64,000 nucleotides of DNA from assembly GCA_900143615.1 (NCBI GenBank), contig FREU01000001.1:1016767-1080766 (forward strand), in the 5' to 3' direction. Origin of the DNA: Rhodobacteraceae bacterium Alg231-30 (GTDB taxonomy: Bacteria > Pseudomonadota > Alphaproteobacteria > Rhodobacterales > Rhodobacteraceae). Below, one piece after another: positions 36,230-59,042 of the stretch. Under the pieces are notes generated by a model, which saw nothing but the letters and a program-made list of their open reading frames with translations, ran no database searches and was not told the DNA's origin. How positions within the stretch are numbered: position 1 is the stretch's first letter; each line of letters opens with the position of its first letter. The position numbers and the translations under genes are program-made.

Positions 36230-37087
36230 GTTGCGCTCCTAGAAAAGATTGTCGCAACGAATATGGGGTTTACGGCTTTGGTGTCCTTGTCGGGATACGT
36301 CAAAGTTCTTGTATATCTCGCCAATCAGGGGTGACGACTAAGTTGGCCAAGATTGAATTTAATCCGGATCAGCATTGGAAACAAAATGCCACGCCCTGAA
36401 ATTCAGCCGTCCATCGACATTGTAGCGGATACTCTCCTGCGCAGGAACATCGCCCAACCCGTCGCGGTCATGTTGCCAGACAAATAAGAGGATTGGGTCA
36501 TTCTCACTCCCGCAGCCCTCGCCCCCAAGCACTTACAAAACACGTCACCATATCAGAGGAATAGCAAGCGCAGATTCTGACGGAATTAACGATCGAAATG
36601 GAAGTCTCGTAAGCGGGCTTCAACAACACTCACACAACATAATTGAGAGGAACCCTATGGCCCCAACTGGTTGTAGATCTCTTGAATGTCGGCTTTGAGG
36701 AACGTTAGACTTACAGACTGCAGTTGCAGCCTCCTCGCTCCAAGTCCCTTCTAATTGGACGCTTTGGTCTGAGACCGACGTCGCGGCGCGATAAAACAAC
36801 AGTAGCTTTGTCCGCAAACGGGCCTCGGGCGCGCGCAGGCAATCAGCAGCATAGCCTCAAAGGGGAACCATTAAGAAGGAAAAGTGGCGGGCCCGCAAAC
36901 GCAGCCGTAGGGTTATCTCATTCCCGAGGACCTGTATGTACAGGTGGGCGCCAGGTAATCAGGCCAGGGCCAGAACAGAGCCAGCTCCCTCGGAATTGCT
37001 TAAGGCCACCGGAATGCAACCGTATTACGAGAAGGGCAGAACCCGCCACGCTCCTATGTAGGCGCGTCGGCGGGTTCTGACAAGGGT
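36230..37087. other. Long gene-less stretch
   Basis: About 860 bases with only short, unsupported frames. A 10-bp stem AGAACCCGCC/GGCGGGTTCT at 37036-37079 lies at its end and belongs with the downstream side of the propeller-cytochrome gene at 37131. I see no RNA gene or mobile element; part may be decayed coding DNA. Confidence 0.4.
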
Positions 37088-37130: not shown

Positions 37131-38834
37131 TTACTTCGACAGGGTCGAGAGGTAAGCGCCGATTGCGCGGCGTTCTTCTTCAGAGATGTCGTCAGCAATG
37201 AAGTCCATTTGCGGAACAACACCGTTCAGAGCTTCGTTCAGAAGCGAGTAGCCGATGCCGCGGATATCCGGGCCAATCGCGCCACCAGCGTCCATGCTGT
37301 GACATGGGGCACAACCGTGGTCAGCCGCTTTGGTTTCAAAGAGCTCTTTACCCATTGCGATTTGCTCTGGAGTTGCTGGAACGTGCTCTTCCTCTTCAGG
37401 AGCGAGACGGGCCAGAACGTGCTCTTCGACTTTGGCGATCATGTTGTGAGAACGTGGTCCGCCTTGGTCGGCCATCAGCTCACCAGACCAGTCGGCTTCG
37501 TAACGTACGAAGGCACCAGAGTGTGTGTCGCCGCCGTATGGGGTTGCCACATAGTCTTTTACCTCAAGAGTGTTGAGGTCGACGATGATGGTTTCCCAGC
37601 CGTTCATGGACGAAACCCAAAGTTCGTTCACTTCTGGATCGGGGTGCAGGATTGCGTGGTCAACCGAGGAGGCCGAGCCGCCCAAGTGGATTGGCATCTG
37701 CATTTTGCCGCGGAATGGTGCAAAGCGCTCAGCGTCAACAACACCGAGGTTCATGCCCACGTTGTGTGTGCCTTCGCCTTTACCAACCGAGAACAGCAGG
37801 CTTTCGTCCCAGTTCATCGCAACGCCGTAGGGGCCGCCTACGCCAGCAGATGTCCAAGCGATCACGCTGTTGGAGTCATTGTCGATTTTGTAGACATAGC
37901 TGCCTTGGCCATCGATGACATAAGTGTGTTTGTCATCATAGCTGTGGGTGATGCCGATGGGGTGGTAACCAGTGCCCATCACGTTGTTCACGATACCTGT
38001 GTTCAGGTCGAGCTTGGCAACACCTGCGGTTGGAACATAGTTCTGACGGTGCTCAGCGGAGCCGATCGAGATGTAAGCAGTGTTACAGTCGCGCGACGGG
38101 CTAACAAATGGGTGACCCATTGTCTGAACGTCATCATAGTTGATGGCGCGCGCTACACGGTTGTCATCATCAGGATCCAGAACAAAGTGTGGTCCACCGG
38201 AGGCGCCAAAGCCGAACTGTGCAATCACGCGCTGTGTGCCATCTTCGGTAGCACAAGCCATGATGTGGTGAGGCGCTTGCGAGCGAGGCGCACCACGGTA
38301 GTGGCTTTCCTGACGCAGCAGCTTGTCGAGTTTCAGCGTGCGCATGTTCACCACGGCGATGTAGCCGGATGTACGTGTTATGCTACCGTCCTGCTCGTTC
38401 CAGCCAACATAAGCCCATTTCCCATCAGGGGAGACGACCATGCCGTGTGGGCCGCGCGCGATGCGGTTGCCGGTTTCGTGGTGGTTCACGATCACGTCAG
38501 TGATGACTTCTTTGGTGTAGGCGTCAACCAGGTGGAAACCTGCGTAGCTGCCGTCCAGAAGACGATCGGTGTTGTAGTTCTGGTGAGATTCACTGGTCAC
38601 GTAGACCAATGGGTGTTTTTCAACATCCCAGGCATCAGGGCCGCTTGAATCAAACTGAGCCACGAGCTCTAGGCCGCCGCGAATTGATTCATCTGTATCC
38701 CAGTCCATTTCGGCTGCCTTGGCGACAGCTTCGTCATAACCTGGGATGGCTGTTTGCTGTGCATATACTGCAGGGGCCATCAGCAATGCTGAGAGGCCGA
38801 CAATCATGGGCAGCGGAGCTTTGAATTTTTTCAT
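37131..38834 (-). CDS. Periplasmic His-rich beta-propeller fused to C-terminal cytochrome c (paralog 1)
   Basis: 567 residues: Sec signal (ends AVYAQQ), a long YVTN/d1-like beta-propeller (about 60-470), and a cytochrome c domain with heme site CAPCH at 508-512 and likely Met ligand in PQMDF. Histidines lie in repeated propeller motifs shared with its two paralogs: KHPL, ESHQN, GPHG, a HH pair, GGPHF, MGHP, YHPIGITH, EGTHNVG, SSVDHAILHP, GDTHSG. This density of invariant histidines suggests a metal (possibly copper) site rather than a plain scaffold. Function is not known; electrons from the propeller centre would pass to the attached heme. It stands alone with hairpins at its 3' side. Confidence 0.85.
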   Translation of the reverse strand: MKKFKAPLPMIVGLSALLMAPAVYAQQTAIPGYDEAVAKAAEMDWDTDESIRGGLELVAQFDSSGPDAWDVEKHPLVYVTSESHQNYNTDRLLDGSYAGFHLVDAYTKEVITDVIVNHHETGNRIARGPHGMVVSPDGKWAYVGWNEQDGSITRTSGYIAVVNMRTLKLDKLLRQESHYRGAPRSQAPHHIMACATEDGTQRVIAQFGFGASGGPHFVLDPDDDNRVARAINYDDVQTMGHPFVSPSRDCNTAYISIGSAEHRQNYVPTAGVAKLDLNTGIVNNVMGTGYHPIGITHSYDDKHTYVIDGQGSYVYKIDNDSNSVIAWTSAGVGGPYGVAMNWDESLLFSVGKGEGTHNVGMNLGVVDAERFAPFRGKMQMPIHLGGSASSVDHAILHPDPEVNELWVSSMNGWETIIVDLNTLEVKDYVATPYGGDTHSGAFVRYEADWSGELMADQGGPRSHNMIAKVEEHVLARLAPEEEEHVPATPEQIAMGKELFETKAADHGCAPCHSMDAGGAIGPDIRGIGYSLLNEALNGVVPQMDFIADDISEEERRAIGAYLSTLSK

Positions 38835-39126
38835 TTTTTCTCCATTTCGGTACGCGCTTGGTACCTAGTGGCAATCTATCCAGTGCCACAGGATCGTGAA
38901 TATGAATGCGCAAGTCATCTTTGGTGGGGCGAAATTTAGCTAGTTATTGGCGTTGGGGCGGCGGGCTGTTGCTCGGAATTTTTTACTTGTGTCAGGATGT
39001 CATATTGCCGATGGGAGCCTGTTTTGCGTTAAAAATTCGCCCTTCCTCACACACCTCAAAAGTGTTCCGGGAGCGGTGGTTTTCCGTCAAAATGCGCTTT
39101 TGAAATTTCCGATGAAATTTAAACCT

Positions 39127-39165
39127 CAAAAAAGAAAGCCCCACTCAGCTTGTGCTGAATGGGGC
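39127..39165 (-). terminator. Rho-independent terminator after propeller-cytochrome gene 2
   Basis: On the minus strand, GCCCCA-x-TCAGC/GCTGA-x-TGGGGC stem followed by TTTCTTTTTT, about 45 bases after the stop at 39210. Confidence 0.9.
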
Positions 39166-39209
39166 GCTTTTTAGGCTGCTGTCAGGGACCCCTGAAGCGG
39201 CTTGACCTC

Positions 39210-40904
39210 TTAGTGGCTGAAGGTCGACAGGTATGCCGCGATAGCCTGACGGTCTTCTTGAGAGATTTCATCACGGATGAATTCCATCTGAAGAACGCGA
39301 CCCAGAGCTTCGTCTACCAGAGCAAAGTCAGCACCTTGGATGCCTGGAGCAGACATGCCGTTGGCGTCTGGACCGTGGCAGGAAGCACAGCCTACGCCGC
39401 CAGCAGTTTCTTGGAAGATCACGCGACCTTCTTCGATTTGCTCGGCGGTGTAGACAACTTCTTCGCCAGTGCCCAAGCGGGCTTCGGTGATGGCTTTAAC
39501 TTTTGCCAGCATCGTTGCGCCTTTTGGTCCACCTTGGTCCACGAGCAACTCACCGTTCCAGTCAGCATCGTAACGTACGAAACCGCCAGAGTGCGTGTCA
39601 CCACCGTTTGGAGTCGCGATGTAGTCTTTCACCTCAAGTGTGTTGAGGTCGACAACCATGGTTTCCCAGCCGTTCATGTTGGAAACCCACATCTCGTTCA
39701 CTTCGGGATCGGGGTGCAGGATGTTGTGATCAACCGAGGAGGCCGAGCCGCCCAGAATGATTGGCATCTGGTGTTTGCCACGGTACGGCGTGATGCGGTC
39801 TGCATCAAGGATACCCAGCGATTGGCCGACGTTGTGTGTGCCTTCGCCTTTACCCACTGTGAAGGCCAGGCTTTCGTCCCAGTTCAACGCGATGCCGTAT
39901 GGGCCTGCTACACCGGCGGATGTCCAGCCAACAACGCGGTTGGCGGCATTGTCGATTTTGTAGACAAAGCTACCGTGTCCATCGACGACAAAGGTGAACG
40001 CGTCGTCATGGGTGTGGGTGATGCCGATGGGGTGATAGCCTGTGCCCATCACGTTGGTGACGATGCCGCTGTCGATGTCCATCTTGGCGATGCCGCCACC
40101 GGGTGCATAGGCGTGACGCAGTTCAGGTGAGCCGATCGATACAAATGCGGTTTTACAATCGCGTGACGCAGTGATGAACGGGTGGCCCATCTGCTGAATG
40201 TCATCATATGTGATCGCACGCTCAACGCTGTTGTCGGCGCCCGGGTCCAGAATGAAGTGTGGGCCACCGGATGCACCAAAGCCGAACTGTACGAATACGC
40301 GCTGCTGGCCTTCAGGTGTTTCGCAAGCTTGGAAGTGGTGGACTTCCTGTGAGCGAGGCGCGCCGCGATACATGCTTTCCTGACGCATGATCTTGTCGAC
40401 CTTGAGGGTCTGCATGTTGACAACTGCAACGTAGCCGGAGCCACGTGTTGCTGTGCGGTCTTGCTCGGACCAGCCGACGTAGGCCCATTTGCCATCAGGC
40501 GAAATGATTGTGCCATGTGGCCCGCGTGTGATGGCGTTGCCTTCGGGGTGGTGAGACACGATTTTCTGAGCGATGACTTCTTTGGAATAGCCGTCGATCA
40601 GGTGGAAACCTGCGAAGCTGCCTTCCAATGTGCGGTCAGGGTTCGGGTTCTGGTGGGACTCAGATGTGACGTAGATCAGCGGGTGCTTTTCCACATCCCA
40701 AGCGATGTCGCCTGAGCTGTCAAATTGCGCCACCAGGTGCAGACCGCCGCGAATGGACTCGTCTGTCGCCCAATCGGAGTCTGCTGCTGCGGCTACGGCG
40801 TCGTCGTAGCCTGGAATTTCGGTTTGTTGGGCGGTGGCTGCGGTGGTCAGCAAAACTGCTGAGGTCCCCATCGCCATGGCCAGTGTTGTGAATGGTTTTT
40901 TCAC
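39210..40904 (-). CDS. Periplasmic His-rich beta-propeller fused to C-terminal cytochrome c (paralog 2)
   Basis: 564 residues from a GTG at 40904 with GGAG upstream; the frame is open further upstream but without a signal peptide. Signal ends near TAATAQQ. The propeller is closely similar to paralogs 1 and 3 (for example WDVEKHPLIYVTSESHQN, GGSASSVDHNILHPDPEVNE, GGDTHSGGFVRYDADWNGE) and keeps the invariant histidines. The cytochrome c domain has CASCH at about 506-510 and LQMEF with the likely Met ligand. It lies between paralog 1 and the mmcB gene and ends in a strong terminator, so it is a separate transcription unit. Confidence 0.86.
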   Translation of the reverse strand: MKKPFTTLAMAMGTSAVLLTTAATAQQTEIPGYDDAVAAAADSDWATDESIRGGLHLVAQFDSSGDIAWDVEKHPLIYVTSESHQNPNPDRTLEGSFAGFHLIDGYSKEVIAQKIVSHHPEGNAITRGPHGTIISPDGKWAYVGWSEQDRTATRGSGYVAVVNMQTLKVDKIMRQESMYRGAPRSQEVHHFQACETPEGQQRVFVQFGFGASGGPHFILDPGADNSVERAITYDDIQQMGHPFITASRDCKTAFVSIGSPELRHAYAPGGGIAKMDIDSGIVTNVMGTGYHPIGITHTHDDAFTFVVDGHGSFVYKIDNAANRVVGWTSAGVAGPYGIALNWDESLAFTVGKGEGTHNVGQSLGILDADRITPYRGKHQMPIILGGSASSVDHNILHPDPEVNEMWVSNMNGWETMVVDLNTLEVKDYIATPNGGDTHSGGFVRYDADWNGELLVDQGGPKGATMLAKVKAITEARLGTGEEVVYTAEQIEEGRVIFQETAGGVGCASCHGPDANGMSAPGIQGADFALVDEALGRVLQMEFIRDEISQEDRQAIAAYLSTFSH

Positions 40905-41381
40905 TGTGTTTTTCTCCGTTATCGATACGCTTGGAACGCATTTGCTATGTGAGTGTTGATCGAGGTTTTGTGAAGGACAGTTTCGCTGAGCACTTCGCAA
41001 CCGGCGTCTTTGGGCCATTTGTGGCTGAAGGGGTCGGCTGAGAGTCGCCTATGGCGACAGGGGTGGCGCATTTTGTCACATGGTGTGCCAGCTGCCAATT
41101 AAGGTAAAATGCGCGCTAACATTTCCGAACTGCGTCACGTACAACAACTATTGTGGCGGACAAAAGTGCTTCGCTGGCTGCCTTGCCCAGCCTGCCCGAA
41201 CCCAGCCTGCCCGAAAAATCACCTGAATTCAGGACAGCCATTAGAGCGTCAACAATACGTGGCTGTTAGCGGCTCATGGCGGCTTGGCGACCGCCAAACC
41301 TGCAGGAGGTTTTAACGCCTTCACATCCGGATTGCCTCGCGAACACTTGCTATTTGTTCATGAATTGTTCACCATTCGGAG
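40905..41381. other. Intergenic region between propeller gene 2 and mmcB
   Basis: About 480 bases holding the promoters of two divergent genes. A direct repeat of CCCAGCCTGCCCGAA occurs twice in tandem at about 41187-41216. No FNR-type box like that upstream of paralog 3 was found. Confidence 0.4.
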
Positions 41382-41837
41382 ATGGATGAGAATTTGCAAC
41401 CCGGACAACTTCTGGCACGTGGCGTTGGGCGTCATTTGCGTGGCCATGGCTTTGTGTCAATTGAGGAATTTGTGCCGGCGCGTGGTCTGCGTGTGGACGT
41501 TATGGCACTAGGTCCAAAAGGCGAGTTTTGGGTGATTGAATGCAAGTCCAGCCGGATGGATTTTCAGTCCGATCAAAAGTGGCAGGGCTATCTGGACTGG
41601 TGTGACCGGTATTTTTGGGCGGTCGATACTGACTTTCCGACCGACCTGTTGCCGCCGGACACTGGGCTGATCATCGCAGATGCGTATGATGCGGAAATCA
41701 TTCGCATGGCGCCCGAGGACAAGCTGGCAGCTGCGCGGCGCAAGAAATTGATCCAGAAGTTCGCCACTGATGCCGCGCGCCGGCTTCAGAGATTTCGTGA
41801 TCCGCGCCTCCCTGCTTTGCCTGATGACACTGAGTGA
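41382..41837 (+). CDS. mmcB: MmcB family DNA repair protein
   Basis: 151 residues. The PD-(D/E)XK nuclease-like core is RVDVMALGPKGEFWVIECKSS, followed by FQSDQKWQGYLDWCDRYFWAV and FPTDLLPPDTGLIIAD. This matches the MmcB family, an alphaproteobacterial DNA-damage-related protein whose gene is LexA-controlled in Caulobacter. It is unrelated in function to the cytochrome genes on either side. Confidence 0.88.
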   Translation: MDENLQPGQLLARGVGRHLRGHGFVSIEEFVPARGLRVDVMALGPKGEFWVIECKSSRMDFQSDQKWQGYLDWCDRYFWAVDTDFPTDLLPPDTGLIIADAYDAEIIRMAPEDKLAAARRKKLIQKFATDAARRLQRFRDPRLPALPDDTE

Positions 41838-41873
41838 CGCTCAGGCATCGCAAGTTCAGACCCTGACAGCCGC

Positions 41874-41935
41874 TTTTTGGTGCCTAAAATACCTCGGGGG
41901 AGGCGCGGCTTGCCGCGACGGGGGCAGCGCCCCCT
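41874..41935. repeat. Intergenic repeat element, copy B
   Basis: TTTTTGGTGCC, ATACCTC, a G-run, a CGCGGCTTGCCGCG stem, then GGGGGCAGCGCCCCC. Same ordered blocks as at 29105-29158. It lies between convergent mmcB and the DUF6324 gene. Confidence 0.75.
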
Positions 41936-41947
41936 GATCCGATAAGT

Positions 41948-42136
41948 CTAGTTGCCGACCTGCTGAGCGGCCGCGGCCGCCGCGCGGATTTCCTCGGCAA
42001 TTTCCTCAGCTTCCTCTGGCGAGAAATCCATTGGAATTTCGGCATCGCCAGCTTGAATGAAAATCCGCACGAATCCCTGGTCCGTAGGGCCTATCTGAAG
42101 GTTGGCCTCGATGTCACGTTCGGTATTAATGCCCAT
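41948..42136 (-). CDS. DUF6324 family small protein
   Basis: 62 residues, preceded by GGAG. Begins MGINTERDIEANLQIGPTD and ends in an acidic/alanine helix (EEIAEEIRAAAAAAQQ). I recognise it as a short conserved alphaproteobacterial family of unknown function. Confidence 0.75.
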   Translation of the reverse strand: MGINTERDIEANLQIGPTDQGFVRIFIQAGDAEIPMDFSPEEAEEIAEEIRAAAAAAQQVGN

Positions 42137-42316
42137 TGCGGTTCTCCTGATTGAATAAATCGACTAGCCCGAAAGGCGCGTTAAGGCAAGACATGCAAGG
42201 ATTTGAAGCTCTGAGAGGACAATTGGCAGTTTGGTGCCGAGACATACATATAATCTTCAAAAATCCTGTTTTAGGCGCTTGCATTCATCCGCGCAGGAGG
42301 CTAAATCGCCCTTGTT

Positions 42317-42393
42317 GCCGCCTTAGCTCAGTTGGTTAGAGCACTGGTTTGTGGAACCAGGGGTCCCCCGTTCAAGCCGGGGAGGCGGTACCA
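42317..42393 (+). tRNA. tRNA-His (anticodon GTG)
   Basis: A 77-base cloverleaf with acceptor GCCGCCT/AGGCGGT, D-arm TAGCTCAGTTGGTTAGAGC, anticodon GTG in TTTGTGGA, T-arm with GTTCAAG, and CCA encoded. Position -1 is T and position 73 is A: it lacks the universal G-1:C73 feature, as is known for alphaproteobacterial tRNA-His. Confidence 0.96.
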
Positions 42394-42501
42394 CCCCCCC
42401 CCTCTACATTGATGACTTATTGCGCGGTTCTGCTTGCGCGTTTTGCGACCTGTCTGACCCGTGTCCGTCAATGCACGAGCTGCTTTTTCTGTGACTTCCA
42501 A

Positions 42502-42538
42502 TAAAAAAGGCGGGACCCTCCTCTGGAGAGACCCGCCT
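42502..42538 (-). terminator. Rho-independent terminator of the propeller/cytochrome operon
   Basis: On the minus strand, AGGCGGG/CCCGCCT stem with an inner imperfect CTCTCC/GGAGGG pairing, followed by TTTTTT. It lies 27 bases after the stop at 42565. Confidence 0.88.
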
Positions 42539-42564
42539 ATGTTCGTCTTTGTGTGAAGCGTCGC

Positions 42565-43710
42565 CTAGTGGCAGTAGTTGTTGGTCTTTGCCATGGAGAT
42601 CTGTTCTGGGTTCGATATCACATTCTTGATACGTGCGGTGATTGTGCGGCTGAATGTATCAAACACAACCACATCCCCGGTTTCCTGTATCGTGACGTAG
42701 ATACGTCGGCCATCTGCGTCCCCTACAGGCGCGCTGGGGGTGCCGCCCAAGTCGACTTCGCCATAGCTTTCCATGCTCTCCAAATCGAGCACAACGGCCT
42801 TGTTCTCTGAATCACTTGCCAGGAAGGCCAGAGTTTCAAAGAAGCCAGTGGAAATACCCGCCAGTGAATTGACGCCGGGCAGGGTCCCAACCGTTTCGAA
42901 GTGCTCGGTTGAAATGACTGTTGTGGTCGCGTTGCCGGTGTTGGCTACGACAACAAAGCGTCCGTCAGCTGTGATGTATGGGCGCTGCGGCTCGCTGCCG
43001 ACGGGGAGGGTGTCAACCTGGTTCCAATTGGTGAAGTTGACCATCGGCATGCGGCCAGTATTCTGGTCCACAAGTATGCCATAGAGGCCATTAGGTGTCC
43101 GGGTCATCAAGGAATAAGCAGCTGAATTGGAACCATTTTCCATTGAGAGTTCAATAGGGTCCATTATCGAGCCCATGATTGCGCTGACGACCTGAACTTC
43201 CTGAGTGTCCCCATTGGGAACAAACAAATACTCAGAGTCGTCTGAGTAGCTCATTGAGAGTGGATTTTCCACGCCCTCGATCACGTCAAGAATTTCGGCA
43301 TCACTCAGCGATATGCTGACGATCGTCTTGTCATCTTGGTTCACAACCGAAGCTTCAAACCCGTTTGGTGCTATGTTCAGAGCGTCAGGAACAATAGGCA
43401 AGTCGATGACAATGTCGTCGCTGTCCTGAATGTCCATGATGGTCAGCGTTTGGTTTTCCCGGTTTGCATAGACGATCCGGCTCATTGAGGCAGAAATCGC
43501 CATGTAGTCAGGATGAACTGGCAGGCGGATTTTACCCGCCAGTTCATCCACGCGGATATCGATCATGGCAAGTTCTGCCACGTCGGCACTTTTGACCACG
43601 GCATAGTGCTCAAGTGCAGAATATTCGCGGTCCCAGTAACGGTCATATCCCCACCAGGATACCCCGCCCACCGCAACAACAGCGGCCATAGAGAGTAGTA
43701 ATTTTTTCAT
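42565..43710 (-). CDS. Membrane-anchored YncE/YVTN-type beta-propeller
   Basis: 381 residues with an uncleaved-looking N-terminal helix (LLLSMAAVVAVGGVSWWGY) and a beta-propeller of repeated strands (ISASMSRIVYANRENQTLTIMDI, YSDDSEYLFVPNGDTQEVQVV, ITADGRFVVVANTGNATTTVIS). It lacks the histidine set of the three large paralogs and has no CxxCH heme site. The last residues are NNYCH. It is the last gene of the cytochrome operon, 29 bases after the CcdA-like gene, so a maturation or binding role for the system is inferred, comparable in layout to NirF-type accessory propellers but not shown to be one. Confidence 0.75.
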   Translation of the reverse strand: MKKLLLSMAAVVAVGGVSWWGYDRYWDREYSALEHYAVVKSADVAELAMIDIRVDELAGKIRLPVHPDYMAISASMSRIVYANRENQTLTIMDIQDSDDIVIDLPIVPDALNIAPNGFEASVVNQDDKTIVSISLSDAEILDVIEGVENPLSMSYSDDSEYLFVPNGDTQEVQVVSAIMGSIMDPIELSMENGSNSAAYSLMTRTPNGLYGILVDQNTGRMPMVNFTNWNQVDTLPVGSEPQRPYITADGRFVVVANTGNATTTVISTEHFETVGTLPGVNSLAGISTGFFETLAFLASDSENKAVVLDLESMESYGEVDLGGTPSAPVGDADGRRIYVTIQETGDVVVFDTFSRTITARIKNVISNPEQISMAKTNNYCH

Positions 43711-43739
43711 CTATAGAGACTCCTTACCGTAGTCCCGGA

Positions 43740-45125
43740 TCAGCTAAGACCGAGCAGAGGATAAATTAGGTCACTGACCGTGTGGAATTGGTCAAACACG
43801 AGGATGAGGCCAAAGCCGATGATGATCAGCATGCTAATGAGGCCGATTTGCGGGGTGTATTTGGACACCCAGTTCATCACCGACATTGTGCGCGACAAGA
43901 AGAAGGCGGCCGCCAGGAACGGGATTGCAACCCCCATCGAGAAGATGAACAGGATCAGCCCGCCCAGCCATGCGCTGCCCAGATAGCCAACATAGACAAA
44001 CAGCAATGTCAGAATGGAACCCGAGAAGCAGACCATACAGCCGAGCGAAAAACCAACAGCCATCAGAGCCGAGCGCACATAGGCACCTTTACCTGAGACT
44101 TCGTTGCTTGGTTTCATGGGCAAGCGGCACACCAGTGGGGCGCGGGTCTGGATACCCATCCAAATTCCCATGGCGATGACCAGAATGCCCGATCCTACGG
44201 CCAGCTGTTTAGAATAGGATTCAAACAGGAACTGAGCGGACTTACCCGCAAATCCAATTGCGGCCCCTGCGGCGGTATAAAACACTGTGACGCCGACAAT
44301 AAAGGCGATCGCAATCATCATGACACGGCGGCGCACATCCTTGGGTAGAGTGTCTCCCTTGCGCAGCTGTTCTGCCGACATACCGGTTATGGTTGCCATG
44401 AACACAACGACCAGCTGGATCAGGCAAGGTGTTAGAACCGATGACAAAATCCCCGCGGACAGCGCAAAGACGATCATTGGCGAACTAAGCCCCTGACCTT
44501 CTTCGGGGTATTCAATTGGCAGTTGCCACGACATTGTGTAGCTGCCCTGACGTTCATCCCAATTGTGGCTCAAAGTCAGCTCAAGAAGTTCGGAATCAGG
44601 TTGGATTATGTCGTTGCCATTTGCATCAAAGCGCGGGAACCAGAATGTTGCGTTGCGGTGATGGTCAGCATCCTCAGCGCCTTCTGCACGCGCAATCGGG
44701 TAATCCACACCGTCAACAGTCATGATTGCAACAGGTAGCCCGTCGGGCAGGGTGCCGGTGTGCACGCTTTCGGTTGTGGTAAAGACGTAGTGGTCTTTGG
44801 TGTCGTATTGCGCGGCGATGCGCGCAGTTGCGGTCCGCTTGAAATACTCTTCGGTTGAAAACACAGCGGCCAGCGAAGACTGATCCGGCGTTTCTACACC
44901 ACGTGCCAAGACAGTACTCAGGGTACGATGGGCCGTGTTGCGACCGGTGCGGATTTCGGTACCCGCATCTTTCATAAGTTTCTGGCCTTCAACCATGTAA
45001 GGGAAGACCAGCCATGCGGAGGAGAGTAATAGCGTAATGACGAGCGTAAGTATAAAGGCGAGTAGCCCGTGTTTTTTTAACCCTTTCGGTGCGTCGACGC
45101 CGGCCGAGGAAGTTTCGTCAGACAT
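43740..45125 (-). CDS. CcdA/DsbD-type membrane protein with N-terminal periplasmic domain
   Basis: About 461 residues from the ATG at 45125 (AAGGAG eight bases upstream). One N-terminal helix, a periplasmic domain of about 200 residues, then six or more helices with the two CcdA cysteine motifs: SSVLTPCLIQ and GCMVCFSGSILTL. CcdA-type proteins pass reducing equivalents across the membrane for cytochrome c maturation or for metal-site assembly. The added periplasmic domain is unusual for CcdA. It lies in the cytochrome operon, so it probably serves these cytochromes or the metal site of the propellers. Confidence 0.83.
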   Translation of the reverse strand: MSDETSSAGVDAPKGLKKHGLLAFILTLVITLLLSSAWLVFPYMVEGQKLMKDAGTEIRTGRNTAHRTLSTVLARGVETPDQSSLAAVFSTEEYFKRTATARIAAQYDTKDHYVFTTTESVHTGTLPDGLPVAIMTVDGVDYPIARAEGAEDADHHRNATFWFPRFDANGNDIIQPDSELLELTLSHNWDERQGSYTMSWQLPIEYPEEGQGLSSPMIVFALSAGILSSVLTPCLIQLVVVFMATITGMSAEQLRKGDTLPKDVRRRVMMIAIAFIVGVTVFYTAAGAAIGFAGKSAQFLFESYSKQLAVGSGILVIAMGIWMGIQTRAPLVCRLPMKPSNEVSGKGAYVRSALMAVGFSLGCMVCFSGSILTLLFVYVGYLGSAWLGGLILFIFSMGVAIPFLAAAFFLSRTMSVMNWVSKYTPQIGLISMLIIIGFGLILVFDQFHTVSDLIYPLLGLS

Positions 45126-45131
45126 TTGCAT

Positions 45132-45506
45132 GTCTCCTTGCTTGGTGTTGTTCGCTTGGTCCCGGGATCCGCATGTCAGCCGATTGGCCGCTGCGATCTT
45201 TTTGATTTGCTAGGGTCCCAAGGCGGGATAGTTGTGTTGCTCGGTTGAGGACCGTTTCCGAAGTTCCAAATGCTGTTTGTGTTGTGCATCGAGTAGGTTT
45301 TTGTGGACGAAAATGATCGGGTTTCGAATGAAATGATATTTCAATCGGACGGTCGAAATCGGCCTGTTTTATATGTGTTCGAGCGCAAGCCAAAGATTAG
45401 CATTCTTGTTTTTTGGGATGCTTTGAGTGACGCGGGCGCAGCGAGTTCTTGGTCGCCGCGCCCTGCCGAAATTGATTTATCTTTGAGGCATGTGAAGGGG
45501 GTACGC
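45132..45506. other. Gap between the CcdA-like gene and the third small cytochrome
   Basis: About 370 bases on the operon path with no supported gene. It could hold an extra promoter for the CcdA-like and propeller genes; no box is clear. Confidence 0.35.
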
Positions 45507-45848
45507 TTAGCCGTTCACTTCCCAGAGGTAGTCCAGGTACGCTTCGATGGCTTGCAGCTCATCGGCGCTAAGGTCGAAGAAGGTCATTACTGGTACAGCG
45601 CCGTTCACGGCGTTCTGGATTTGAGCCATGCGTGCACCTTGAATGAAGACACCGCCCATTTCCGAGCTACCTTCGGCTTCCATGCCGTGACAGATGGCAC
45701 AGCCCATGTCACCGGCGTCGGTTTCAAAAAGAACTTTACCCTGTGCGACGAGCGGGTCGTCTAGGCTTGGCGCGGCGAGTACTGGAGCGGCGCTGAATGC
45801 GAGTGTTGAAGCTAGGATAACTCCGAGAAATTGCTTGGTCGTCTTCAT
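45507..45848 (-). CDS. Small periplasmic cytochrome c (stand-alone copy 3)
   Basis: 113 residues from the ATG at 45848 (AGAGGAAAT upstream). Sec signal ends near APVLAAP. Heme site CAICH in GDMGCAICHGMEAEG; a conserved methionine in VPVMTFF is the likely sixth ligand. It is homologous to the C-terminal domains of propeller paralogs 1 and 2 (GCAxCHG, then an M-x-F block, then AIEAYLDYL). Confidence 0.88.
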   Translation of the reverse strand: MKTTKQFLGVILASTLAFSAAPVLAAPSLDDPLVAQGKVLFETDAGDMGCAICHGMEAEGSSEMGGVFIQGARMAQIQNAVNGAVPVMTFFDLSADELQAIEAYLDYLWEVNG

Positions 45849-46116
45849 TTTATTTCCTCTGTCACGTGATTTTTCACGCTTTCTTGGGTGCAGTTGTGCT
45901 TGGATCGGCGGCGGCGCTCTTATGTCGGCGCCGTTCGCCATTTTTCCTGTTTATTCGGCGAGTATTTAGACTGATATAGGGTGTTGTTCTGCATTTTCTT
46001 TGGGCTCGGCGAACTTTCGCCCAAAACTGCATGCGCGTGGAACGACGGAAGACTTCACTCATTACAAAGAGACTAAAATAACCCCAAGTGAGTGCTCCCG
46101 CCCCTCAGTCATATGA

Positions 46117-46434
46117 TCAAAGCTGTTCGATCCAAGCGCCGATAGCTTTGACTTCTGGTCCATTCATTGCCATGTATGAGCGGAGGAATTGCATTTCCAT
46201 AACTGACTGGAATGCTGCTGTGATATCGAGGTCATCAAGGCCGCGAATGTCTGGACCAACGTCACCACTTCCATCGATTGAATGGCAAGCGGCACAGCCC
46301 ATTTCACCCGCGGTTTCTTCAAACAAGAGTTTGCCCATTGCGAGCTGATCTTCGTCCGCAGATACCGTTGTTGCCATACCAAGTAGGAGGGCAGAAGCAA
46401 GAGATGAAGTGATGGATGATTTCGTGAGTTTCAT
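46117..46434 (-). CDS. Small periplasmic cytochrome c (stand-alone copy 2)
   Basis: 105 residues. Sec signal ends near TTVSADE. Heme site CAACH in GEMGCAACHSIDGSG, then GPDIRGLDDLDITAAF and MEMQFL with the likely Met ligand. Closest relative in the window is the next cytochrome upstream (46504-46830), suggesting local duplication. Confidence 0.9.
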   Translation of the reverse strand: MKLTKSSITSSLASALLLGMATTVSADEDQLAMGKLLFEETAGEMGCAACHSIDGSGDVGPDIRGLDDLDITAAFQSVMEMQFLRSYMAMNGPEVKAIGAWIEQL

Positions 46435-46503
46435 TTTGGTTTCTCCTTTTGCACGAAGTTAGGGTTCGTGAAAACTATTGGTGCGTTGAAGAGGACTGGG
46501 GCG

Positions 46504-46830
46504 TTAGCCAAGAGATTCGATATAGGCGCCAACAGCCTTCATTTTTCTGCTGCCTGGTCCAATGTCTCCGCGCAGGAACTGCATTTCGAACACCGAGTTG
46601 AACGCGGCACTTACGTCGAGATCGTCATAACCACGGATATCCGGTCCGATATCACCGGATCCGTCCATTCCGTGGCACGAGGCACAGCCTACGCCGCCTG
46701 CGGTTTCCTCAAAGATGATTTTGCCTTCTGCAATGAGATCTTCATTGGCTGAAACCGAGGTTGTCGACATGGTCAGGGCAAGGCCTACAGTCGCAGCGAA
46801 AGCAAAAGTCGAAGTCAAAATTTTTGACAT
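46504..46830 (-). CDS. Small periplasmic cytochrome c (stand-alone copy 1)
   Basis: 108 residues. Signal ends near TTSVSANE. Heme site CASCH in GGVGCASCHGMDGSG, then GPDIRGYDDLDVSAAF and FEMQFLRGD with the likely Met ligand. The sequence around the heme is almost the same as in the fused domain of paralog 2 (VGCASCHG). It directly follows the cytochrome-less propeller gene, separated by a strong hairpin, and probably replaces the missing fused domain. Confidence 0.9.
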   Translation of the reverse strand: MSKILTSTFAFAATVGLALTMSTTSVSANEDLIAEGKIIFEETAGGVGCASCHGMDGSGDIGPDIRGYDDLDVSAAFNSVFEMQFLRGDIGPGSRKMKAVGAYIESLG

Positions 46831-46856
46831 ATTGGTATTCCTTATTCGGCATGAGA

Positions 46857-46881
46857 CATGCGACGCCTAAGGCGTCGCATG
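46857..46881 (-). terminator. Strong hairpin between propeller gene 3 and cytochrome copy 1
   Basis: CATGCGACGCC/GGCGTCGCATG is an 11-bp perfect stem with a three-base loop and no U-run, 20 bases after the stop of the propeller gene. It may stabilise the upstream mRNA segment and set different levels of propeller and cytochrome rather than end transcription. Confidence 0.6.
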
Positions 46882-46901
46882 CTTTCCAATCGGATTAGAG
46901 T

Positions 46902-48362
46902 TTAGTTGCCTTTACGCTCTGCAACTTTTGCACGCACCAGGTCCTGCATTTCGTGGGATACCGGACCGCCTTGGTCAAACAGCAGCTCGCCGTTCCAGTC
47001 AGCGTCGTAGCGAACAAAGCCACCGGAGTGAGTGTCACCACCGTTTGGTGTAGCGATGTAAGCTTTTGGCTCAAAGGTGTTCAGGTCCAAAACGATTGTT
47101 TCCCAACCCTTCATGGAAGAGATCCACAGTTCGTTTTTCTCGGGGTTTGGGTGCAGGATGGCGTGGTCAACTGAAGAAGCAGAACCGCCCAGGAAGATTG
47201 GCTGCTGAAGGAGGCCAGCGTAAGGCGTCATGTTGTCGGCGCTAACCAGACCAACAGTTTGACCGACGTTGTGGATGCCTTCACCTTTACCAACTGTGAA
47301 CAGGATGCTTTCGTCCCAGTTCAATGTACCGCCGTATGGGCCAGCAACGCCGGAACCCGTGTGGCCAACAACTTGGTTGGTTTCGTTGTCGATTTTGTAA
47401 ACATGGCTTCCGTGTCCATCAACTACGAAGGTTGACTTGCCGTCCATAGAGTGAGTCACACCAATTGGGTGGTGGCCTACGCCCATGACGTTGGTAACGG
47501 CGCCAGTTTCAAGATCAAGTTTCGCCATGCCCGCTGCGCCTGCATTTGCGCCACGGATTTCTGGAGACCCGATCGAAACATACATGGTGTTACAGTCAGG
47601 CGATGGTGTCGTGTAAGGGTGCCCCATCAGCTGAACATCTTCATATGTTACAGCACGATCTACACGGTTGTCATCGTCTGGGTTAAGAACAAAGTGTGGA
47701 CCGCCGTCAGCACTAAAGCCGAACTGCAGGAAAACCCGCTGTTTGCCTTCAGCAGTAGTACAGGCCTGCACGTGGTGGATCGCTTGGGAACGCTGGGCGC
47801 CCCGGAAACGGCTCTGCTGTTTGAACAGCTTGTCAATTTTCATAGTGCGCATGTTTACGACAGCCACGAAACCGGTTTGGCGAATGTCGCCGGAGGTCCG
47901 TTCTACCCATCCGACATATGCCCATTTCCCGTCAGGGGATGTGGCAACACCATGTGGGCCACGGGCGATTTGTGTGCCGCGCTCGGCGTTTGAGCCGATA
48001 TACTGAGCGACGATCTCATGGGTGTCGGCATCCACCAGATGGAACCCGGCAAAGGAGCCGCTGAGGCTACGATCTGGGTTGTTGTTTTGGTGAGATTCTG
48101 ACGTGATGTAGACAAGCGGGTGCTTGGCCGGATCCCATGCATCGGGACCGCTGGAGTCGTATTGAGCAACCAGGTGCAGACCGCCACGAATGGATTCATC
48201 GTTGGCCCAGTCGGATGCTTCAGCTGCAGCAACCGCTGCTTCAAACTCTGGAGCTTCTAGGATTGAAGTTGTTGCGATCGATGCGGATGCGGTCGACGCT
48301 GTGGCGATCGCCAGCGCGATAGCTGAGATGCCGCCGATTGTGGCGCGCTTGGATTTTGTCAT
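46902..48362 (-). CDS. Periplasmic His-rich beta-propeller without cytochrome domain (paralog 3)
   Basis: 486 residues with a Sec signal (GGISAIALAIATASTASAS). It aligns along its whole length with the propeller parts of paralogs 1 and 2 and keeps the histidine set: KHPL, ESHQN, GPHG, HHVQAC, GGPHF, MGHP, HHPIGVTH, GEGIHNVG, SSVDHAILHP, GDTHSGG. It ends where the cytochrome domain begins in the others. The partner hemes are probably the three small cytochromes that follow. An FNR/CRP-type site is 105 bases upstream of the start. Catalytic role unknown; a multi-copper propeller is one hypothesis. Confidence 0.87.
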   Translation of the reverse strand: MTKSKRATIGGISAIALAIATASTASASIATTSILEAPEFEAAVAAAEASDWANDESIRGGLHLVAQYDSSGPDAWDPAKHPLVYITSESHQNNNPDRSLSGSFAGFHLVDADTHEIVAQYIGSNAERGTQIARGPHGVATSPDGKWAYVGWVERTSGDIRQTGFVAVVNMRTMKIDKLFKQQSRFRGAQRSQAIHHVQACTTAEGKQRVFLQFGFSADGGPHFVLNPDDDNRVDRAVTYEDVQLMGHPYTTPSPDCNTMYVSIGSPEIRGANAGAAGMAKLDLETGAVTNVMGVGHHPIGVTHSMDGKSTFVVDGHGSHVYKIDNETNQVVGHTGSGVAGPYGGTLNWDESILFTVGKGEGIHNVGQTVGLVSADNMTPYAGLLQQPIFLGGSASSVDHAILHPNPEKNELWISSMKGWETIVLDLNTFEPKAYIATPNGGDTHSGGFVRYDADWNGELLFDQGGPVSHEMQDLVRAKVAERKGN

Positions 48363-48466
48363 TTGTTTTCTCCGTATTTAGTTCTTGGCAGGTTTGGTTC
48401 CTGTTTTCCAAGATCAGATTCGGTGACCTGATGGAGATTTTATTTCACTTCAAAAATTACAGTTAT

Positions 48467-48480
48467 TTGATCTGGATCAG
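48467..48480 (-). promoter_or_regulatory. FNR/CRP-family box upstream of propeller gene 3
   Basis: TTGATCTGGATCAG matches the FNR/Dnr consensus TTGAT-N4-ATCAA at 9 of 10 positions. It is 105-118 bases upstream of the start; an AT-rich stretch TGAAATAAAAT lies at the right distance downstream to serve as a -10 region of an activated promoter. Confidence 0.6.
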
Positions 48481-49183
48481 AAACCCTTTTTGCCCGAAAT
48501 GGTGATTTCTTCCGAAGTTAGCCTCTGCGTTTCCAATTATTGCGAGGGCGAATCTGTCTTTCGGGTAACCGTATGAAGGGTAGAAAACTATCAGTTTATT
48601 TTCGAAAGGTTTGGTTGGGAAATCTCTTTTTATTTTTCGGCGGATAATGGCTTTTTGGTATCTTCTGCGGCAGTTATCTGCTTGCTGTGGAAGAGTTCAG
48701 GTAGTGATAGTTTTATATAATTTGCAAAGATATCTGGGTAATTCATTGTTTTTGTTGGAAATACTTGTTTTTTGATTTTGATTTCTTATTCTCTATTTGA
48801 TTTAGGGCGGATTGTCGCGGCTGAATGAAGTATTTTAATTAGTTGAGCAAGCTCGTTGGTGATTTTATTTTCGGTAATAGTGTTGCTGCCACGTTTCTTC
48901 GGCGAGATGCTGCTTGAATTCGGCGGTAATTCACCAGAACTCAATGAAGTGGTGGAGAGATTTTGGACTGAATAGGCATTTGAAGGGGGGCACCTGCAAA
49001 AGCTTATGCCTTATTATCTTTGTCCTTGGGTATTTTTGGTGCTTTTGATCGATTTCGTATCCCCTGTTTGATTGATCTATATCGCGAGGGCTGGCGATGT
49101 GTTTGGTGGCTTTTACCAAAGATTGACCCGACCTAGGCGAGTTACGCCAAGGAGATGTGGGTAATTCTCAAATTTTGAGCAGG
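48481..49183. other. AT-rich gene-less stretch between the cytochrome operon and the sensor kinase
   Basis: About 700 bases, clearly richer in A and T than its neighbours, without a supported gene. It lies 3' of the kinase gene and 5' of the propeller operon, so it may contain further regulator sites or a small RNA, but nothing can be named. Confidence 0.4.
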
Positions 49184-51733
49184 TTAAGGTGCTGGGGTGG
49201 ATGTCGTTGTTTTTAGGGCCTTCAACAGTTGGGCGCGCAAAGGGGGCCACGAGGCCTCGTCGCTGCCTTCCAATTGGGACAGTGTTTGCCATTGGGCCTG
49301 GAGGCCAAGGACAGCCGCAGAACCGTAAAGCGCATGAGCTTGGGCGCGCGCGGCTGGGGTTGGGTGCTCGGCCAATTGGAGCAGCGTAGCAAAAGCGTCC
49401 ATTTCAATGTGAAATTGATCCAAAGCGGCCTGATAGCGTTCGCGCCCGAGTATCTTGATCGCCTGGGTCTTTGCATCGGATGAATGCGCCCGATCTTGGT
49501 CACCGATATCATTGGGCACGGGAGTCATCGGGGTGTCCAAAAGCTGAGTGATGCTCTGGCGCGAAAGGGGCTTGGTAATTATCTGGCGAAACCCGGCGCT
49601 TTTGATGCGTTCTTGGTCTTCGGTGGCGGCATGTGCGGTCAGCGCGACAATACGTGTGGCTTTGTTTGGACCGGCGCCGGCACGGATGGATTGTAGTGCT
49701 TCGATCCCGTCCACACCGGGCATGCTGATGTCCATCAAAATCAAATCATAGGCTTGTGCCTCAGCCATTTGAATTGCGCTTTGGCCGCCGTGGGCTTCAT
49801 CGACGGTGAAGCCACGATTGCGCAACATTTCAGCGGCAATCAGGCGGTTGATCTCATTATCGTCCACCACCAGCGCATTGGTTGTTCCGGCAGGCGATAT
49901 GGATGCCTTTGTTTGTACAACAGGTTTTGGAAGACTGGGCGCTTGTGTGGGCGGCAGTGGCAGGCGCATGGTAAAGAGGCTGCCTTCACCTTCTATGCTG
50001 TCGGCCTCAAGTTCACCTCCCATAGCTGTGATCAATTGCTGGGTAATCGCGAGACCAAGGCCGGTGCCTGAAAACTCGCGTGAATAGCCCGTGTCTATGG
50101 TGACAAAGGCCTCAAAAATTCGGCTTAGGTCTTCTTCCGCGATGCCCACGCCAGTGTCTGAAATCCGGAATTCAACCAAATCCCCTTCCGCGAGTCTTTC
50201 GACCTCCAGCGTTACGGTGCCGTTTGTTGTAAACTTTGTGGCGTTGCCGAGCAGATTGATCAGGCACTGTTTCAAACGGTTTTCATCACCAATGACGCTG
50301 CCGATGTCCTCGGGGATCAGGTGAATGCTAATCGTGTTGTTCTGCACCTCGCTCAGAGCGATTTGGCTTTTGACCACATTGTTCACCAAATCGGGCAATG
50401 AAACGGTTTGTGTTTTGGGAGTGATGGCGGTGGCATCGTTGCGCGATAGGTCCAACACATTATTGACGTGGCTTAAGAGCAGGTCACCGGATAGCCCAAT
50501 CGCGTCCAGATAGCGGGTCTGCCCGGGCTTCAGGCTATCGCGGTCGATCAGTTCAAGCGAGCCGAGGATGCCATTGAGCGGCGTGCGCATCTCGTGGCTC
50601 ATCACAGTGAGCAGCTCAGCTTTGGCTTTCTCTCCGGCTTGTGCTTCGTCACGCGCGCGCACCAGCTCTTCCTCATCGGCGACCTGTTGGGAGATGTCGC
50701 GCAAGAAAGAGACAAAGACGGTTTGGTCACCGTTGTTTGCCACATCGATCGACAATTCGGTGGGGAACACGTGGCCGGATTTGTGCAGTGCTTCCAGCCG
50801 TACGCGGCCCGCTCCAATGACACGTTTCTCGCCGCTCTCCAGAAACCGTTTCATGCCAGCAACATGGGCCGCGCGCAAATGTTCAGGCACAATCAAATCG
50901 CTCATGTTTTGCCCAAGGACGTCGGCCTGTTTGTGACCAAAGACCTGTTCTGCAGCGCCGTTGAACGCGATGATATTACCATCGGTGTCGATGACCAGAA
51001 TGGCATCCAGCGACGAGTTGACCATGGCTTCAAAGCGGGTGCGCATCAACTCGTTTTCCTGCGAAACAGTGCGAATTCGGGTGTACATACGTAGAAGGAA
51101 CACGATGGTCGCAGCCAGAATTGTGATCAGGGCAAGGGCGGAGAGCCCGAGTTTGAGCAAGGTTTGAGAGATGTCGCCGCGCGTGATCTCGTCACTGTCG
51201 GCAAAGAGCCCGATCCCGTCCAAGGCAAGACCGCGAATGTCAGGGTGTAGATGTTCGGTCCGTGCGCGCAAATTGGGGACTTGATCCAGCAATGCTTGGT
51301 CGCTGCCATCAATGAACGGAACAGCCAGGTCGAGAAATCGTTTGAAATGCGCGATCCGTTCGGGGATGCCGGGTTGGGTGCGAAACTCGGCGTAAACCGG
51401 GCTGTCTGCGATGATGGCATATCGGCTGTAGAAAATGTCAAACCGGCGGCGCAGTTGTTCAAGCTCTTCAGGGCCGTCAATTACCACCCGATCCATCGTG
51501 TTCTGAAGTCGCAGCAGGTCCACTTCGATCTGGGCCAATGTCCATTCGACATTGTCGGTTGAGGCCGTGGCCAGCCGCTGCATCTGGTTCAAAACGACCC
51601 GACCCAGAACAACGCTTTGCGCTAGAAGAACCAAAAGCACGAGGCTCAGAACAGCCGTTCTGAGCCACGGGGTTTGCCAGAATGCACGCGCTGTCTTGAT
51701 GAGACTTCTCCGTTTAGTCTTGCAACACTTCAA
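49184..51733 (-). CDS. Hybrid sensor histidine kinase (PAS-HisKA-HATPase-REC-HPt)
   Basis: 849 residues. Two membrane helices (about 27-47 and 195-215) enclose a periplasmic sensor of about 145 residues. Then a PAS domain (RFEAMVNSSLDAILVIDTDG), HisKA with His380 in VMSHEMRTPLNGILG, a HATPase with DTGVGIAEEDLSRIFEAF and GTGLGLAI, a receiver domain (LVVDDNEINRLIAAEM, DLILMDISMPG), and an HPt-like end (AHALYGSAAVLGL). The start is uncertain: no ATG lies near the N-terminus, and the TTG at 51733 overlaps the upstream gene by 20 bases. It probably phosphorylates the LuxR-type regulator nearby. Confidence 0.88.
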   Translation of the reverse strand: MKCCKTKRRSLIKTARAFWQTPWLRTAVLSLVLLVLLAQSVVLGRVVLNQMQRLATASTDNVEWTLAQIEVDLLRLQNTMDRVVIDGPEELEQLRRRFDIFYSRYAIIADSPVYAEFRTQPGIPERIAHFKRFLDLAVPFIDGSDQALLDQVPNLRARTEHLHPDIRGLALDGIGLFADSDEITRGDISQTLLKLGLSALALITILAATIVFLLRMYTRIRTVSQENELMRTRFEAMVNSSLDAILVIDTDGNIIAFNGAAEQVFGHKQADVLGQNMSDLIVPEHLRAAHVAGMKRFLESGEKRVIGAGRVRLEALHKSGHVFPTELSIDVANNGDQTVFVSFLRDISQQVADEEELVRARDEAQAGEKAKAELLTVMSHEMRTPLNGILGSLELIDRDSLKPGQTRYLDAIGLSGDLLLSHVNNVLDLSRNDATAITPKTQTVSLPDLVNNVVKSQIALSEVQNNTISIHLIPEDIGSVIGDENRLKQCLINLLGNATKFTTNGTVTLEVERLAEGDLVEFRISDTGVGIAEEDLSRIFEAFVTIDTGYSREFSGTGLGLAITQQLITAMGGELEADSIEGEGSLFTMRLPLPPTQAPSLPKPVVQTKASISPAGTTNALVVDDNEINRLIAAEMLRNRGFTVDEAHGGQSAIQMAEAQAYDLILMDISMPGVDGIEALQSIRAGAGPNKATRIVALTAHAATEDQERIKSAGFRQIITKPLSRQSITQLLDTPMTPVPNDIGDQDRAHSSDAKTQAIKILGRERYQAALDQFHIEMDAFATLLQLAEHPTPAARAQAHALYGSAAVLGLQAQWQTLSQLEGSDEASWPPLRAQLLKALKTTTSTPAP

Positions 51734-52226: not shown

Positions 52227-52441
52227 TATTGAACTCCTGAAATGGGACGCATCGACGTCGATTTCGGTGGAGTATAGGGATGTTTGTCTCAGGCGCATGT
52301 GAGCAAAGGGTCAGCCAACTATCCTTTCGTATAGGTGGCATAGACCGTTGCGCCCCAGTCGCAGCCGAAAGGGAGCAAAACTCAACCAACAGGTGTCATT
52401 ATAGTGAATCCTCAGGGTGGTGCAGTTTTGAGGAAAAGAAG

Positions 52442-53155: not shown

Positions 53156-53180
53156 CCGGCCCCGAGGCGTTTGCTTTTCT

Positions 53181-55805: not shown

Positions 55806-55846
55806 GTCGTGTCTCCAAGGAATGTATATTTATTTGTTTCAAGGGG

Positions 55847-57238: not shown

Positions 57239-57376
57239 AACGTTTCCTCCGTGGTTGGAATGAACTTAAGGTATTGAATTTTATGATGTAACTGTGGGGA
57301 AGGTTATGTCGTGGTCGCGAAGGATGCGCGTTTCTAACCCAAAGGATAGCCCTCGCGCATTTGAGCAAATCGCTGC

Positions 57377-57406
57377 AAAAATGGCCCGCAGATATCTCTG
57401 CGGGCC
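57377..57406 (-). terminator. Rho-independent terminator after alg8
   Basis: On the minus strand, a perfect GGCCCGCAGA/TCTGCGGGCC stem with a four-base loop followed by ATTTTTG, 44 bases after the alg8 stop. Confidence 0.88.
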
Positions 57407-57449
57407 AGTGTGCCGAGGGGCGATAATAGGGACAGCCTCTCGGTGGGGA

Positions 57450-59039: not shown

Positions 59040-59042
59040 GAC

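Follow-up and report, generated by a model that had tools for sequence, protein, structure and literature searches.

What kind of enzyme is formed by histidine-rich propeller proteins that are encoded beside cytochromes c and in part fused to them? The question is raised by Rhodobacteraceae bacterium Alg231-30, in which a stretch of 64,000 nucleotides of contig FREU01000001.1 (hereafter the window, analysed at its whole length) carries three paralogous propeller genes, A, B and C, on the minus strand between positions 37131 and 48362. A first-pass annotation, made from this DNA alone, had placed the three genes there, and all three have been confirmed; it had further proposed that their products are periplasmic oxidoreductases that pass electrons to cytochrome c. 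To our knowledge, copper propellers are known for few reactions only, namely the reduction of N2O and the oxidation of thiocyanate. The best explanation of the locus, to which we assign a probability of roughly 55%, is a family of periplasmic oxidoreductases, probably of the copper type, that would work in the manner of nitrous oxide reductase (NosZ) and thiocyanate dehydrogenase (TcDH) while belonging to neither, exchange electrons with cytochrome c or cupredoxin, and possess a loading factor of their own.

A histidine core conserved across the family

The three propellers are 61-67% identical in pairs and share 14 invariant histidines (His), where the first-pass annotation had claimed at least a dozen: H81, H91, H108, H137, H196, H197, H223, H248, H298, H304, H364, H400, H404 and H445, numbered here and throughout as in paralog C. 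As judged by sequence comparison, this pattern is more than the kinship of three paralogs, because five of these residues are invariant across 35 family members whose pairwise identity has a median of 27% and a minimum of 20%. The members aligned are the three of the window, five other close and seven distant copies from the host genome (G000), three from G004 and G060, one from Trueperaceae and 16 from Chloroflexi; copies that were partial, broken or weak (the L006 copy, L049:8138-8845, L067:1-702, L061:4781-5548, the L070 fragment, G821:C25 and G818:C34) were dropped. Exactly nine columns are invariant, H137, H196, H197, G344, H400, P405, E411, W413 and H445, and five of the nine are His. 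A separate MAFFT alignment gave the same five His in 35 of 35 rows each, with K359 and D399 in 34 rows and E361 in 32.

Each remaining His of paralog C is found in at most 19 of the 35 rows, and H248, H298, H364, H81 and H404 are kept in addition in the close clade. The wider family narrows the claim of the first-pass annotation: a core of five His holds in all 35 members as a family signature, whereas most of the dozen is limited to close relatives. A tandem paralog in Chloroflexi (L005:3432-4898) is without several His of the close clade, namely H91, H108, H223 and H298, yet keeps all five core His.

The propeller parts of A, B and C match no Pfam or NCBIfam model at its cut-off, and among ten relatives scanned the generic repeat model TIGR02276 alone passes its cut-off on the propeller, in two of them. 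Sequence searches of PDB revealed no characterized close homolog, and so none belonging to a non-metal family. Searches with one protein and with a nine-row profile returned generic propellers and were set aside; the 35-row profile gave a non-generic match to 8q9x (expectation value, E, 1.9e-7) and 8yu5 (E 2.3e-5), an unnamed 489-residue protein with a twin-arginine (Tat) signal. No match was obtained in plasmid and phage collections, and no published description of the family was found among the open-literature titles listed.

Placement of the core in the predicted propeller

AlphaFold2 models, built with nine sequences, were obtained for paralog C (predicted local distance difference test score, pLDDT, 74; predicted template modelling score, pTM, 0.80) and paralog A (pLDDT 74.8; pTM 0.75). 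By strand count both have seven blades, and in both one blade is closed by strands from the two termini; the inner strand of blade 4 is unformed in the model of paralog A. In paralog C the innermost strands start at residues 139, 195, 246, 299, 345, 398 and 447, and each core His lies within two residues of such a start, with H445 on blade 1, H137 on blade 2, H196 and H197 on blade 3, and H400 on blade 7. Blades 7, 1, 2 and 3 are neighbours, which places the core on one side of the tunnel in the model. The chance that five random core positions all fall at innermost-strand starts is 8e-6, a figure that serves as a guide only, the strands themselves being taken from the model. A scatter of the shared His over the surface, which had been named as an outcome that would speak against a metal site, is not what the model gives: it puts the invariant His at the inner strands of four blades that lie side by side.

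Relation to NosZ and TcDH

In NosZ, the CuZ centre is held by seven His on six blades (H326 and H494 appear in the titles of PDB entries). NosZ and the present propellers have in common a seven-bladed fold, His at the inner strands, a carrier domain after the propeller and the same blade order in structural alignment, and in the models the core His lie where NosZ has its CuZ ligands. The propellers differ in having five invariant His on four blades, in carrying their HH pair on blade 3 rather than on blade 2, and in the lack of a CuA domain, in place of which the window propellers have a heme c domain or nothing. Neither Pfam nor NCBIfam returned a NosZ model for A, B or C at E 1, and no nos-like gene was seen among the window neighbours scanned. 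Clade III NosZ has been named lactonase-type (L-NosZ) in the excerpted text of PMC13122619, and its model NF052460, with 480 positions, describes a propeller enzyme of similar length. This model is not listed for A, B or C up to E 1 and reaches at best 54.4 bits among ten relatives, against a cut-off of 700; its best match in the host genome, of 139 bits, is the ordinary NosZ.

TcDH (PDB 5F75, 6SJI) is described, in excerpts of two papers, as a periplasmic seven-bladed propeller with copper in a central tunnel and cytochrome c as the recipient of its electrons (PMC9456337; PMC6504805). Its active site, as listed in an excerpt of PMC6504805, comprises K103, H135, H136, Q156, H206, E288, D314, H381, H437, H482, H528, D529 and R544, a list that is rich in His and contains Lys, Asp and Glu, and that the conserved set of the propellers would resemble in its composition. 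The published TcDH comparison covers homologs of more than 30% identity. By residue spacing only, TcDH would have its HH pair one blade earlier and more His on blades that bear no invariant His in the propellers. It also has a Tat signal (excerpt of PMC6504805), whereas the N-termini of A, B and C look, by eye, like Sec-type signals, and its partner genes are of the Cop/Cus kind, different from those of the propellers.

Electron carriers

A redox domain is fused to 19 of the 35 members, being heme c in 16 and cupredoxin in three (assigned partly by eye). Heme c is C-terminal in window A and B, in L015-L018, in L065 and in L067:3618-5591, and N-terminal in the seven distant copies of the host and in L051. 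The three cupredoxin domains, all C-terminal and all from Chloroflexi, belong to L062:4786-6828, L063:1705-3828 and L066:7040-9115, the last recognized by Pfam and the other two by eye. Separate cytochromes accompany window C, L019, L002 and L048, and a cytochrome-cupredoxin protein accompanies L001. One of the free cytochromes of the window (46117-46434) shares 61-63% identity with heme domains that, in L015 and L018, form part of the propeller proteins. Nothing argues as strongly for a redox function of the propellers as this occurrence of the same heme domain both free and fused. The earlier description of the carriers stands for the single C-terminal hemes of A and B and for the separate hemes following C, of which two exceed the Pfam cut-off and the third (45507-45941) remains below it.

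A candidate metal-loading partner

The membrane protein encoded at 43740-45131 is probably a dedicated metal-loading factor for the propellers. It is like DsbD and CcdA in its DsbD_TM region, which scores over the cut-off and in which the Cys columns are kept by 13-15 of 15-17 rows (C236, C365 and C368, of 463 residues, in 15 of 17 each), and it differs from them by a new three-His domain. Seven columns of this domain are invariant among 17 aligned sequences, three of them His, and the three His were kept in 18 of 18 partners in a first alignment, all sequences being drawn from propeller neighbourhoods. Four pieces scanned gave no Pfam family above cut-off for the domain, and PDB gave no match at E 1. 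Of 394 genomes sampled from the host's family, three (G000, G004 and G060) have the domain, and these are the same three that carry the propeller; the two counts have equal sample sizes and apparently come from the same draw. All six copies found in the host sit in propeller loci (the window and L020-L024). In L004 the domain is flanked on both sides by cupredoxin domains (by Pfam) and is without DsbD_TM, and L003 has a similar arrangement, its cupredoxin being recognized by similarity. A smaller, YncE-like propeller gene adjoins the partner gene in the window, and its homologs lie close to propellers in L020-L024, L049, L050 and L051.

Table 1. Features of the propeller locus, in window positions
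Feature	Position	Strand	Details
6S RNA-like element	36886-37045	minus	Rfam RF00013, 29.3 bits (gathering score 46.4); full length
Propeller paralog A	37131-38834	minus	567 aa; C-terminal heme c domain, CAPCH at residue 508; PF00034 21.8 bits (cut-off 21.3)
Propeller paralog B	39210-40904	minus	C-terminal heme c domain, CASCH; PF00034 21.6 bits
YncE-like small propeller	42565-43710	minus	N-terminal membrane anchor (by eye); PF21783 37.8 bits (cut-off 27.1)
Membrane partner, putative loading factor	43740-45131	minus	N-terminal helix (by eye), three-His domain, DsbD_TM; PF02683 50.5 bits (cut-off 27.1)
Undescribed three-His domain of the partner	44508-44930	minus	ExVHxGxLP ... HHR; about 140 residues, between first helix and DsbD_TM
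Small protein with one CxxCH (CAICH), cytochrome c-like	45507-45941	minus	18.0 bits, below Pfam cut-off 21.3
One-heme cytochrome c	46117-46434	minus	PF00034 25.4 bits; 54-63% identical to fused heme domains of L015, L017, L018
One-heme cytochrome c	46504-46830	minus	PF00034 23.6 bits; 47-59% identical to fused heme domains of L015, L017, L018
Propeller paralog C	46902-48362	minus	486 aa; no heme domain; core H137, H196, H197, H400, H445

Direction of electron flow and possible substrates

Genes for subunit I of a cytochrome bd-type oxidase are present near the Chloroflexi propellers of L002, L004 and L068 (three of three genes scanned). Those of L002, L003 and L004 have close by a cupredoxin and a cytochrome c that includes, by eye, a membrane part (three of three each); the genes scanned were promising-looking neighbours, not a census. 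The bd-type oxidase neighbourhood favours a flow of electrons from the propeller to oxygen.

Rhodanese genes lie beside propellers in L003 and L004 (two of six loci of the named scan), and an aminotransferase of class V, the type found in cysteine desulfurases, lies near the propeller of L002; together they are a weak hint at sulfur. Cyanase was detected in none of nine propeller genomes tested and in two of 32 genomes overall (G006 and G020, which are without propeller at E 1e-30). This absence is weak evidence against thiocyanate, because Thioalkalivibrio is also without cyanase, according to PMC6504805.

Pairs resembling sensor kinases and response regulators stand beside Chloroflexi propellers (L002:13159-15776, L004:12719-15356, L005:492-3100), and in the window a hybrid kinase and a response regulator (49184-53155), upstream of the propeller operon, are 29-33% identical to the Chloroflexi regulators. 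Near the cupredoxin-propeller of L062, a gene at L062:1956-3713 combines an HMA domain with a pyridine nucleotide-disulfide oxidoreductase, the arrangement of mercuric reductases, and a regulator-like gene adjoins it.

Distribution and paralogs

The pattern is real, strict and widely scattered. The host genome (4.54 Mb, estimated 100% complete) holds 15 propellers by profile search, eight of them close (E 8.8e-236 or better) and seven distant (E 1.1e-17 to 2.2e-9), the latter 23-25% identical to paralog C over the alignment. The distant copies occupy five loci, each with a DsbD_TM gene and a YncE-like gene, and the order DsbD_TM, YncE-like, propeller is kept in four and changed in L024. At L021:6550-12053, three distant heme-propellers follow the DsbD_TM and YncE-like genes in tandem, and a porin-like gene comes after them. 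The close copies L015:5550-7307, L016:6195-7916, L017:5427-7184 and L018:6446-8203 are solitary among unrelated-looking genes (for example, elongation factor genes in L017), with no partner or cytochrome gene within the stretch read.

None of 59 other relatives searched, 24 of them from the same genus, has a propeller at E 1e-30. With the wider profile, at E 1e-10, propellers were found in three of 394 genomes of the host's family, G000, G004 (same genus, one distant copy) and G060 (another genus), and in two of 398 genomes of the phylum sample; at E 1e-20 they were found in six of 400 genomes in the phylum of the Chloroflexi carrier G821. These counts include the carrier genomes, and only the best three or four candidates per genome were scored. 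The named genome scan gave one record from Trueperaceae and five from Chloroflexi, the latter including one of Dehalococcoidales. In a midpoint-rooted tree, the eight close copies of the host form one clade (100/98), joined by the G060 copy (100/99) and then by that of Trueperaceae. On this tree the close copies look as if they had multiplied within the host lineage. The many paralogs in one genome suggest variants for different substrates.

Genomic setting and apparent gain

The 6S RNA-like element that adjoins paralog A is strongly conserved in the five relatives aligned. In seven of eight same-genus relatives (L099, L100, L102-L106), it lies about 50-200 bases from the homolog of the gene at 41382-41837, and the stretch 37131-41018 with its two propeller genes is not between them; in L101 the two are about 1.6 kb apart. 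Paralog B has a GTG start preceded by GGAG, and its open frame extends to 41018. In L099 and L100, the tRNA-His gene (42317-42393 in the window) and, behind it, the homolog of 60764-63133 are separated by about 300 bases at most, which means that these two relatives lack the stretch 42565-60473; in the remaining six this homolog falls outside the stretch read. Since relatives lack each of the two stretches at the corresponding position, two separate gains seem, on this gene order, to flank the same small conserved block. The GC content barely deviates (0.53-0.55 versus 0.55), and no exact copy of 14 or more bases from the end of the tRNA-His gene, as an attachment repeat, was found elsewhere in the window.

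Proposed mechanism and competing explanations

In the proposed copper oxidoreductase, by analogy with NosZ and TcDH, the five core His would hold one to three copper ions as a centre to one side of the central tunnel. A small substrate would enter the tunnel and be oxidized there, and electrons would pass singly into the respiratory chain via heme c or cupredoxin. As the signal appears to be of the Sec type, the metal would be inserted outside the cytoplasm. This insertion would be the task of the partner protein, whose three-His domain would hold copper and whose DsbD-type part would bring reducing equivalents, with the YncE-like protein as an accessory. In a more far-reaching form, which we place somewhat short of even odds, the family would join NosZ and TcDH as one more lineage of His-tunnel copper propellers. 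It would have a core of five His, electron ports that can be either heme c or blue copper, a copper-loading factor of its own and 15 copies in the host, and it may oxidize a range of small substrates that are not known to be respired in this way.

Several results weigh against the copper oxidoreductase. Tyr343 stands on blade 6 where NosZ carries a CuZ His. Comparison with one NosZ by hhalign gave a probability of 2-3%, and comparison with 15 NosZ rows (the host's own NosZ counted twice, two of 16 loci dropped) gave 50%, through a short 'PHG..PDGK' blade motif lying three blades off the structural register; both were rejected and not taken as evidence of homology. With the 35-row profile, the PDB entries 6uwe, 5oex, 6sji and 5f75 appeared at E 0.023-0.038 over about 60 residues, with no family-level match to TcDH; NirF (E 2e-6) and cytochrome cd1 (E 0.008-0.02) did better or equally well. 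The best Foldseek matches are lactonase-type, YVTN, surface-layer, WD40 and designed propellers; for the second model, cd1 nitrite reductases take ranks 2-4 and fill much of the top 50, and for the first, NirN takes ranks 3, 5 and 7, with NirF also high. TcDH is not among the 50 matches listed per search, which excludes nothing. The partner gene is not in the stretch read at L015-L019, L001, L050, L061, L064 and L065, and its DsbD_TM region could instead serve heme c maturation.

The same type of enzyme might run as a reductase, with a cytochrome or cupredoxin feeding the His-bound copper centre and a small molecule being reduced, as N2O is by NosZ. We regard this as unlikely, even though NosZ is the sole copper enzyme among the fold matches listed and the C-terminal cupredoxin of L062, L063 and L066 reproduces the NosZ domain order, with a weak TIGR04246 match (21.3 bits) on the domain of L066. 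The copper loops of these cupredoxins have, by eye, one Cys, as in blue copper proteins, against two in CuA; no NosZ model is listed for A, B or C; the host already has an ordinary NosZ with nosR-, nosD-, nosF- and nosY-like neighbours (by eye); and the bd-type oxidase genes near Chloroflexi propellers suggest that oxygen is the final acceptor.

An improbable alternative is that the propeller, rich in His, serves as a metal carrier for the storage or transfer of zinc or copper in the periplasm, with the hemes being incidental. Its model is AztD, a periplasmic metal-transfer propeller that resembles NosZ and nitrite reductase and is encoded in a zinc operon with an ATP-binding cassette (ABC) transporter, according to excerpts of PMC6689063; AztD (6cmk) is found at Foldseek rank 49, and the three-His domain of the partner would also suit a carrier. 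However, the same excerpts give AztD eight blades, against seven modelled here, and mention neither heme nor cupredoxin, whereas the window neighbours are cytochromes and a DsbD_TM protein, heme c is fused at either end of the propeller and cupredoxin is fused in relatives, and no metal ABC transporter was found among the neighbours scanned. Equally improbable is a propeller with no metal site at all, in which the conserved His stabilize a lactonase- or YVTN-type scaffold and heme is the sole redox centre. The best fold matches are indeed lactonase-type and surface-layer propellers, yet a scaffold does not account well for five strictly invariant His and nearly fixed Lys, Asp and Glu at identities down to 20%, nor for a dedicated partner that co-occurs.

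The heme d1-type propeller (like cytochrome cd1, NirN or NirF), put forward earlier as the main alternative, is very improbable: in spite of the fused cytochrome c, N-terminal in distant paralogs, the Foldseek ranks and profile matches given above, and PF02239 (d1 domain) scores in relatives of 19.0 bits (L021:10275-12053) and 24.9 bits (the distant Chloroflexi L066, just below the cut-off of 25.5), both models have seven blades where cd1 has eight, the Foldseek template modelling scores of cd1 and NirN on the query are 0.40-0.49 with root-mean-square deviations of 6 to 10 A, A, B and C give no PF02239 match at E 1, and five invariant His exceed what a d1 site uses. The first proposal of periplasmic oxidoreductases delivering electrons to cytochrome c is partly supported and has kept its outline, with an export signal (by eye), a seven-bladed model, a His set on one tunnel side and a redox domain in 19 of 35 members, but has been reduced from a dozen His to five.

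Significance

The propeller family is apparently undescribed and may represent a new kind of respiratory enzyme. The five His together with the partner domain constitute a signature that can be used in genome searches. If the copper oxidoreductase is confirmed, it would add a route of periplasmic redox chemistry in which the ligand set is strict, the loading factor dedicated and the electron port exchangeable, and would offer a comparison for the evolution and loading of CuZ-like sites. The 15 paralogs in one organism would then be a test bed for the substrate range of such enzymes.

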